From Candidatus Kaiserbacteria bacterium RIFCSPHIGHO2_01_FULL_53_31 (GTDB lineage: Bacteria; Patescibacteriota; Minisyncoccia; Phycocordibacterales; Phycocordibacteraceae), in the NCBI GenBank assembly GCA_001781095.1, contig MFKU01000014.1:1-59528 (forward strand): a stretch of DNA of 59,528 nt, given 5' to 3'. Position 1 is the stretch's first letter. Each line of letters opens with the position of its first letter. Below are positions 33,251-36,390 of the stretch, one piece after another. A program made the translations under genes and the position numbers. The notes beneath the pieces were generated by a model that was given only the letters and a program-made list of their open reading frames with translations, was not told the DNA's origin and did not search any database.

Positions 33251-33949
33251 ATGAGCAAAGCAACATTCGGACAGGCGCTTCAGGCGTTGAATCTGATTCA
33301 CGCAAAGGACCCGACTGCAGAACGCCTCACGGCGCTCTACAACTCCGGCATCCTCGCGGATGTGCTCGACGCAGACCTTTCGAAGGTCGAACGCGATGCT
33401 GTCCGTGCTGCGCTCAAGCTCGGAAGCATCTTCACTCGCAACGAGCACGGCCACGTTGTCGTGACCTTCACCGGTCTCGACATTACGGGTGCCGAGGAAA
33501 TCGCTCGGCTCGAAGCAGGCGGGTACCGCGTGGGCAACTACGCGAAGCAGTGCTTCACGAGCACGAACGACGACAGCTACGACAAGTGTCATCGTCTCGT
33601 CGCCGGTCAGCAGTATCGGATCGCCCTCGTCCCCGGAAAGGACATCGAGCGCGATTCCGAGCGGACAACCGCAGCCCTGCAGAAACTCGGCGAGAAGTGC
33701 GGCTATGGCAAGGCGCTCGGCGGACATATCCCGCGAATCCGAGAGATCATCTCGGACAAGCAGATGGAAGAAATGGGGATCTGGTACATCGCAGCCCTCC
33801 ATGACCCCATCAAGAATTCCGGCGGCGACCCGAGTGTGCTCGACGTCTACCGCTACGATGGCGAGCGATGGGTCAGCACCTATTGGGGCTCTCCCGACAG
33901 TCAGTGGGATGGCAGTGGCGCTTTCGCGTTTCCCGTTGCCGCAAGTTAG
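33251..33949 (+). CDS. DGR target protein with C-terminal variable region
   Basis: SD aggaggaacct; C-terminus VLDVYRYDGERWVSTYWGSPDSQWDGSGAFAFPVAAS matches the nearby template repeat with A-only differences. Confidence 0.92.
   Translation: MSKATFGQALQALNLIHAKDPTAERLTALYNSGILADVLDADLSKVERDAVRAALKLGSIFTRNEHGHVVVTFTGLDITGAEEIARLEAGGYRVGNYAKQCFTSTNDDSYDKCHRLVAGQQYRIALVPGKDIERDSERTTAALQKLGEKCGYGKALGGHIPRIREIISDKQMEEMGIWYIAALHDPIKNSGGDPSVLDVYRYDGERWVSTYWGSPDSQWDGSGAFAFPVAAS
33818..33944 (+). repeat. DGR variable repeat (VR), 127 nt
   Basis: 119/127 identical to 34297-34423; all 8 mismatches are A in the other copy. Confidence 0.95.
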
Positions 33950-34296: not shown

Positions 34297-34423
34297 TCCG
34301 GCGGCAACCCGAATGTGCTCAACGTCAACCGCTACGATGGCGAGCGATGGGTCAGCACCTATTGGGGCTATCCCGACAGTCAGTGGAATGACAATGGCGC
34401 TTTCGCGTTTCCCGTTGCCGCAA
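34297..34423 (+). repeat. DGR template repeat (TR), 127 nt
   Basis: tccggcggcAacccgaAtgtgctcAacgtcAaccgc...ggctAtccc...tggAatgAcaAtggc...gccgcaa; capital A marks positions substituted in the VR. Confidence 0.95.
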
Positions 34424-34439: not shown

Positions 34440-34456
34440 CCCCGCTATACGCGGGG
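34440..34456. terminator. Hairpin between TR and avd
   Basis: CCCCGC tatac GCGGGG. Confidence 0.5.
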
Positions 34457-34786
34457 TTGAGTTTTGCCTAGCTGCCCGTTCCAACCACCCAGCATTTTAC
34501 CGATTTCTTCAATCGGGACGGAGAGCGCAACGTATTTCTTCGTATCGAGTGATTTTGTCTCCCAGAGCACGAGTAACATCACCTTCAGGGTATCCAGTTT
34601 GCGAATGGCGAGCCGTACCCATGGCTGTTTTTCGGTTTTAGCGAGGAAAGTTGCAGAGGAGATCGCTTCTATCGTTTCTACAAAGAGCTCGTCTATCTTT
34701 CCGCCGAGAGTGTATCGATGTGTCTTGGGAATGGTCTGATAATATCCGTACCAAAGGATATATGCTGTCTTCAAACGCTCAAGCAC
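34445..34786 (-). CDS. avd: Avd-like four-helix-bundle protein (DGR accessory variability determinant)
   Basis: LERLKTAYILWYGYYQTIPKTHRYTLGGKIDELFVETIEAISSATFL...IEEIGKMLGGW; annotated start is GTG, true start may lie across the poly-C/G tract at 34818. Confidence 0.8.
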   Translation of the reverse strand: MLERLKTAYILWYGYYQTIPKTHRYTLGGKIDELFVETIEAISSATFLAKTEKQPWVRLAIRKLDTLKVMLLVLWETKSLDTKKYVALSVPIEEIGKMLGGWNGQLGKTQPRV

Positions 34787-34800
34787 GGGGAGAAGTCGTT

Positions 34801-34810
34801 GGGGGGGGGG
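34801..34810. repeat. Homopolymer tract G10
   Basis: gggggggggg between the 5' ends of avd (-) and the RT (+). Confidence 0.95.
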
Positions 34811-34856
34811 TTACTCATGGACGCTCGTATACGACGATATCATTTCGGTCGAGAAT

Positions 34857-35822
34857 TTGCTTGAAGCTTGGCGCGAGTTCAAACGAGACAAGCGCAAACG
34901 CGCTGATGTGCAGGAGTTTGGGAGAAACCTGATGAGCAATGTTCTCGACCTACATCGAGAACTTGCGACCGGTACGTACCAGCATGGTGGCTATCATCAT
35001 TTCAAGATAAGCGATCCAAAACCGCGTGATATCCACAAGGCGAGTGCGCGCGACCGGCTCGTACATCACTCGCTTCATCGAAAACTATATCCATTCTTCG
35101 ATCGCATCTTTATTGCTGACTCATATTCTTGTCGTATCGAGAAAGGAACGCACAAGGCGATGAATCGCTTTCGCGCATTCGCCTACAAAGTTTCGCAGAA
35201 CAACACACGCACCTGCTGGGTTCTCAAGTGCGACATTCGCAAATTCTTCGCGTCTATCGATCACGAAGCGCTCGTCCGTATCTTGCGTGCACATATTTCT
35301 GATGAGCGTCTGATGTTGCTTCTTGTAAATATTATCGGCAGTTTCAATTCAGACACTGTGGGGAGAGGTCTCCCGCTCGGGAATCTCACATCACAGTTAC
35401 TGGTAAACATTTACATGAACGAGTTTGATCAGTTCGTGAAGCATAAAATCAAAGCGAAGTATTACATCCGCTACGCTGATGATTTTGTGATTTTCTCCCA
35501 TGACCGAACTCATCTGGTAGAAATACTTCCATATATGGACGTATTTCTACGTTACCAGTTGAAACTTAAAATGCATCCGAACAAGGTTTCCATCGCAACC
35601 CTCTCTTCTGGCGTCGACTTTCTGGGCTGGGTCCATTTTCCCGATCGCCGCGTGCTACGTACGAGCACAAAGAAGCGAATGTTTAGAAACATACAAGAGA
35701 AGCAAGGGCACGAGGCAACAGTCCAGTCGTATCTCGGCCTGTTGAGTCATGGGAATGCTTGGAAACTTCAAGAAAGTGTAAAGTCCTTGCACGAGGTAGC
35801 GCTCGCGAAGCATTCGGTTTGA
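34857..35822 (+). CDS. DGR-type reverse transcriptase
   Basis: HHSLHRKLYPFFDRIFIADSYSCRIEKGTHKAMNRF; GLPLGNLTSQLLVNIYMNEFD; YIRYADDFVIFS. Supplied start is TTG; N-terminus may be truncated by the G10 tract. Confidence 0.95.
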   Translation: MLEAWREFKRDKRKRADVQEFGRNLMSNVLDLHRELATGTYQHGGYHHFKISDPKPRDIHKASARDRLVHHSLHRKLYPFFDRIFIADSYSCRIEKGTHKAMNRFRAFAYKVSQNNTRTCWVLKCDIRKFFASIDHEALVRILRAHISDERLMLLLVNIIGSFNSDTVGRGLPLGNLTSQLLVNIYMNEFDQFVKHKIKAKYYIRYADDFVIFSHDRTHLVEILPYMDVFLRYQLKLKMHPNKVSIATLSSGVDFLGWVHFPDRRVLRTSTKKRMFRNIQEKQGHEATVQSYLGLLSHGNAWKLQESVKSLHEVALAKHSV

Positions 35823-35854: not shown

Positions 35855-36130
35855 ATGAATACGAAGACAACCATCACCATCAAAACCGACAAGAAGTTGC
35901 GTGACGCAGCGAAGCGCACGGCCATGAAATTGGGCATTCCACTCTCAACCGTGATGAATGCCCAACTTGCGCAATTCGTCTCCGAAGGGCGTTTTGAGGT
36001 GTCGCTCACTCCCCGTCCTGAAAGGGTACGAGCATGGGAACGCATAAGTGAAGAAATGGATCAACACCCGGAGCGCTATAAAGTGTTTACGAATGCCGAT
36101 GACTTGCTTGTTGATCTCGGTCTCGCATGA
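35855..36130 (+). CDS. RelB/DinJ-type antitoxin
   Basis: TTITIKTDKKLRDAAKRTAMKLGIPLSTVMNAQLAQFV ribbon-helix-helix style; 4-nt overlap with the next gene. Confidence 0.8.
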   Translation: MNTKTTITIKTDKKLRDAAKRTAMKLGIPLSTVMNAQLAQFVSEGRFEVSLTPRPERVRAWERISEEMDQHPERYKVFTNADDLLVDLGLA

Positions 36131-36390
36131 TCATTGTCTACGCGTCCAGCTTTAAAAAGCAGATTCGCCACTTGCCTCCGGGGATCAAACGGGCACTGTC
36201 TGAACGATTGCGTCTGTTCGTGGACATGCCATACCACCCATTACTCGACAATCACGTATTGAAGGGAGATCGCCGCGGATACCGTAGCATCAATATCACC
36301 GGTGACTGGAGAGTTATCTATGAATATGTTGACGCAACAAACGTACGACTCATCGAAATAGGCACGCACCACGATCTGTACGGTACCTAG
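36127..36390 (+). CDS. RelE/YafQ-type mRNA interferase toxin
   Basis: SSFKKQIRHLPPGIKRALSERLRLF...DWRVIYEYVDATNVRLIEIGTHHDLYG. Confidence 0.82.
   Translation: MIIVYASSFKKQIRHLPPGIKRALSERLRLFVDMPYHPLLDNHVLKGDRRGYRSINITGDWRVIYEYVDATNVRLIEIGTHHDLYGT

Follow-up and report, generated by a model that had tools for sequence, protein, structure and literature searches.

The G/C tract between the divergent 5′ ends of avd and the reverse transcriptase (RT) gene, in a diversity-generating retroelement (DGR) of Candidatus Kaiserbacteria, is probably a simple sequence repeat (SSR) contingency locus, a reading to which we assign a probability of roughly 85%. Slipped-strand changes in its length would switch Avd, and hence mutagenic retrohoming, between ON and OFF states. 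The proposed mechanism has four steps. Firstly, avd would be transcribed from a promoter within the divergent RT gene, and translated from an ATG upstream of the repeat. Secondly, the gain or loss of repeat units by replication slippage in living populations would move the avd body into or out of frame. Thirdly, Avd function would be lost in the OFF frames. Fourthly, each cell lineage would stochastically become either DGR-ON, with a diversifying target protein, or DGR-OFF, with a frozen target. As Avd is needed for retrohoming in the reconstituted BPP-1 DGR, in which its loss drops retrohoming to background (PMC12875486), such a frame switch should arm and disarm hypermutation. The elements that can be read directly from the DNA are the conserved repeat, its position, the constraint on the ATG and promoter region, the mixture of frames, and the past DGR activity of OFF loci.

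A diversity-generating retroelement with a homopolymer at the start of avd

The window, meaning the whole 59,528 nt stretch that was analysed, corresponds to contig C14 in a genome of 667 kb, and carries a DGR whose RT has its nearest named relatives in Kaiserbacteria and other Parcubacteria. On the forward strand, a 232 aa target protein (33251..33949), for which searches of Pfam and NCBIfam returned no match, ends in a C-terminal variable repeat (VR; 33818..33944). This differs from the 127 bp template repeat (TR; 34297..34423, +) at eight positions, all eight of them TR adenines, as in an adenine-specific TR/VR pair; by this pattern, the VR is a record of past mutagenic retrohoming. On the reverse strand, the conserved avd body (34445..34786) was recognised as the accessory protein through its match to bAvd (PF22296; 44.7 bits, with a cut-off of 40). 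The NCBIfam DivGenRetAVD match fell below its cut-off, and a sequence search of the PDB with the avd body found no relative. The conserved part of the RT (34857..35822, +) matched RVT_1 (E 2.5e-25), and its homologues, which are at most 73% identical, adjoin avd genes, identifying it as a DGR-type RT. Directly 3′ of the RT gene is a toxin-antitoxin-like pair (35855-36390), including a YafQ/ParE-type toxin (36127-36390).

The tract that separates the avd and RT 5′ ends consists, as had been noted from the sequence, of exactly ten G (34801..34810; C10 on the avd strand). Dinucleotide shuffles gave an expectation of 0.03 such runs in the window, and pattern searches identified it as the sole G/C run of at least nine in the 667 kb genome, with three more runs of exactly eight. 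With ten G, the internal GTG at 34786 is the only in-frame start of avd, and TTG 34857 is the only ATG, GTG or TTG start of the RT, the N-terminal coding stretch YSWTLVYDDIISVEN (34811..34856, +) being open yet containing none of these codons between the tract and the RT motif LLEAW. One additional base (modulo three, hence 11 or 8 G) joins the avd body to the ATG upstream of the tract (34816..34818, -), from which it reads MSNPPPQRLLPVLERLK..., and also extends the RT, which then reads MLSSNAQARGEVVGGGGYSWTLVYDDIISVENLLEAW from a candidate start ATG at 34762..34764 (+). The coordinates and frame arithmetic of the original prediction were all reproduced on recomputation. The best reading is that the window was assembled at an OFF length (10 G), and that 11 or 8 G would be ON, with the reservation that homopolymer counts in single assemblies, including the 10 (or 11) of the window, may be off by one.

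Frame-changing repeats recur at related avd/RT junctions

The comparison with related genomes, which had been proposed as a check, was made with RT loci gathered at the level of genus, order and phylum, to which those of named GTDB genomes were added; RT and avd were located by profile models built from these same loci. A frame-changing SSR was present at the same site, between the RT LLEAW and the avd body, in 201 of 230 distinct divergent junctions from the ultra-small Patescibacteria, a proportion that describes this group of RTs rather than all DGRs, since the loci were picked by similarity to the RT of the window. Control windows of equal size elsewhere in the same loci contained a repeat in 15 of 3318 cases, although the loci are related, such that Fisher p-values overstate the independence of these observations. 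Similarly, G/C runs of at least seven were found in 156 of 188 junctions, compared with 3/3318 control windows. These homologous junctions strongly support the phase-variable interpretation of the original prediction as far as avd is concerned.

The repeats were poly-C on the avd strand in 175 of the 201 junctions, dinucleotide in 21, tetranucleotide in four and heptanucleotide in one; none of the strong repeats had a unit of three or six nucleotides. Repeats of different types (C9, (AACC)10.5 and (CAAT)7) replace one another between loci that are approximately 85-90% identical, and AACC, CAAT, GTCA, CT, CA and GA repeats occupy the position of poly-C in other loci. In junction L053, the avd start carries a heptanucleotide, (GCCAGCC)n, instead of poly-C. 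In intact junctions without a repeat, the avd ATG is in frame. IMG/VR contributed 12 loci, one of them with a C8 tract. Hence the tract shares with known SSR contingency loci its length and perfection, its rarity in the genome, a unit that is not a multiple of three, and its place in the 5′ coding end.

The same repeats might instead be sites of programmed transcriptional or ribosomal slippage, such that every template yields some in-frame Avd (and RT), with repeat length tuning the dose. This would accommodate both the prevalence of G/C homopolymers, on which slippage is possible, and the maintenance of OFF loci as functional (see below). However, tetranucleotide, CT, CA and heptanucleotide repeats at the same place would not be expected to slip alike, making this explanation unlikely.

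The probable start of avd is a constrained ATG upstream of the repeat

An ATG no more than 50 nt upstream of the repeat, with a frame open through the repeat in at least one register, was present in 169 of 171 repeat-bearing loci, whereas 67 were expected from shuffled sequences. The repeat is positioned between the avd ATG and the conserved avd body. Upstream of the repeat, and inside the RT gene, this ATG is accompanied by a promoter-like -10 element: in 72 of 199 loci, an extended motif, TGnTATnAT, terminates exactly 7 nt upstream of the avd start codon. This 7 nt spacing suggests that avd messages are leaderless, and initiated inside the RT gene. The RT codons antisense to this region are strongly biased at synonymous sites. 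The first Ile is encoded by ATC in 150/189 loci, compared with a share of 29% for ATC among RT-body Ile codons; the Asp or Asn codon preceding it ends in T in 127/129 (63% in the comparison); and the His codon antisense to the avd start region is CAT in 173/184 (against 54%). Such a bias among synonymous RT codons suggests that the avd promoter and ATG are maintained within the RT gene by selection. The window itself is a poor fit to this family consensus, as its ATG is shifted and its extended -10-like element, TGATATCGT (34834..34842, -, inside the RT coding sequence), is degenerate and matches weakly; a generic promoter scan of the window scored no promoter, this element included.

Alternatively, avd could begin at an internal GTG or TTG after the tract, with the repeat modulating transcription or translation as part of the 5′ UTR or as a promoter spacer. 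Internal codons are available in most loci (in the interval from the repeat to codon nine of the avd body, 156/199 contain an ATG, GTG or TTG, and 74/199 an ATG or GTG), and promoter spacing is a known type of phase variation, for which hifA/hifB of Haemophilus influenzae are cited in PMC11868660. However, 125 of the 199 loci have neither ATG nor GTG in this interval, the -10-like element and the constrained ATG are both upstream of the repeat, and the lack of 3 or 6 nt units points to the reading frame as the property being altered. Hence we regard this alternative as quite unlikely. If the reading frame is instead what switches, internal codons might allow a shortened Avd to be made in the OFF frames, with GTG 34786 being such a site in the window.

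Frame state lacks phylogenetic signal among apparently functional loci

The ON state, with the avd body in frame, was seen in 52 loci, and the OFF state, with the body out of frame, in 147. Mapped onto the RT tree, frame state required 76 changes, compared with 73.5 when labels were shuffled, and hence carried no phylogenetic signal, whereas repeat type was clustered, requiring 33 changes compared with 51.2. As frame changes are as frequent as those of random labels, while repeat type is inherited in clusters, the state appears to turn over faster than species diverge; a mixture of states among relatives, independent of phylogeny, is likewise a property of SSR contingency loci. The OFF loci do not resemble relics. 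Their avd genes were full length in 122/127 cases, with substitutions concentrated at third codon positions (91:50:280 by position). With VR/TR pairs counted as adenine-specific when A accounted for 80% or more of no fewer than four mismatches, such pairs were found in 59 of the 67 OFF loci searched, and at a similar rate in ON loci (19 of 21). The combination of intact avd and adenine-specific differences implies that OFF loci were recently active.

Gaps of N were also in excess at the junctions (four across 18 kb, compared with 11 across 652 kb), as expected if tract lengths are mixed or difficult to assemble. A search for species assembled twice identified a single near-identical pair (L172 and L175, 98%, from two genomes), in which the first has C9, and the second has an assembly gap within the C tract, with C6 on either side.

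The alternative offered by the original prediction was a one-base consensus or assembly error at the homopolymer, such that living cells would in fact always carry avd and the RT in frame. It is true that a single base restores both frames, and that homopolymers are error-prone, but an isolated error cannot account for the repeat itself. Across many separate assemblies, 201 junctions carry the repeat, and around three quarters of these junctions are out of frame; di-, tetra- and heptanucleotide repeats behave likewise; and homologues without the repeat are in frame. An error of this kind is consequently very unlikely. Scarcely credible is a structural or binding role of the tract in DNA or RNA, for instance as a G-quadruplex or within the cDNA-priming RNA, since although the RT strand is G-rich in most loci, repeats of AACC, CAAT, GTCA, CT, CA and GA substitute for it at the same position.

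Possible switching of the RT in a subset of loci

It had also been proposed that one slip would change the starts of both genes. This was strongly supported for avd, but only partly for the RT, which in 124 of 171 repeat-bearing loci possesses an ATG of its own beyond the repeat. Phase variation of the RT was therefore rejected as a general rule, as only avd would switch where the RT starts after the tract. The RT of the window belongs to a minority class of 29/171 loci without any ATG, GTG or TTG after the repeat; among mono-G members of this class, an RT ATG is found upstream in 23/25. The RT ATG and avd are in frame at the same tract length in all 14 unambiguous mono-G loci of this class, and in 6/18 of the class with an ATG. 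As two register types were observed, (0,0) at 19 loci and (1,1) at four, the window among them, inheritance explains part of this agreement. At the junction of the window, and at about 25 others like it, the N-terminal frame of the RT extends through the tract, with its upstream ATG in the register of avd; there is an approximately even chance that both genes switch together in these loci. A wider proposal can only be tentative, at slightly below even odds: that a phylum-wide, two-layer evolvability system uses a microsatellite in antisense-overlapping gene starts to toggle a targeted hypermutation retroelement at random, with the subgroup including the window having Avd and RT set in one register, such that one slip would arm or disarm the whole system.

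Other tracts in these genomes

Twenty other G-tract stretches, from related genomes and that of the window, contained no avd gene. In one related genome (G013), paralogous secreted-looking proteins (L280-L283) each have a tract of G10-G13 roughly 40-50 nt upstream of the ATG, inside a conserved 5′ region; these tracts may be contingency loci that act on transcription. In the genome of the window, a C8 tract (L299, G000:C16:37611-37618) lies beside the 5′ end of an ORF, which by eye we take to resemble phosphonopyruvate decarboxylase, and could be a second contingency locus.

Discussion

SSR contingency loci are typified by the poly-G/C tracts of Campylobacter and Neisseria, and the tetranucleotide repeats of Haemophilus mod genes. 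The avd junctions are similar in having unstable tracts of 7-14 G/C, or units of two or four nucleotides, within the 5′ end of an ORF, with all three registers occupied. They differ in their occurrence across Patescibacteria, and in that the gene proposed to switch encodes part of a targeted hypermutation machine, and not a methyltransferase or surface antigen. The resemblance to hifA/hifB of H. influenzae is that a single repeat between divergent genes can affect both, although there the repeat alters promoter spacing, as cited in PMC11868660, whereas here it is inside the reading frames.

As a DGR, the element in the window resembles those of the Bordetella BPP-1 type and those of DGR clade 2, described as restricted to Patescibacteria (Roux et al. 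2021, PMC8144416), in combining RT, Avd, TR and a VR with adenine-specific differences. However, avd, TR and brt of BPP-1 form one operon (PMC12875486), whereas avd here is divergent from the RT gene, overlaps its 5′ end, and contains a frame-changing repeat. Although DGRs and SSR phase variation are both familiar individually, our search of the open-access literature found no report of a phase-variable DGR, nor any account of phase variation in Patescibacteria.

The proposal bears on how DGRs are regulated, and on how their hosts avoid the constant scrambling of a useful target protein. Under it, avd should be overlooked or truncated by annotation pipelines in the majority of these genomes. 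If correct, it would place a heritable, reversible ON/OFF switch on a mutator, such that one form of localised hypermutation controls another, and could thereby explain how target alleles alternate between diversification and fixation.
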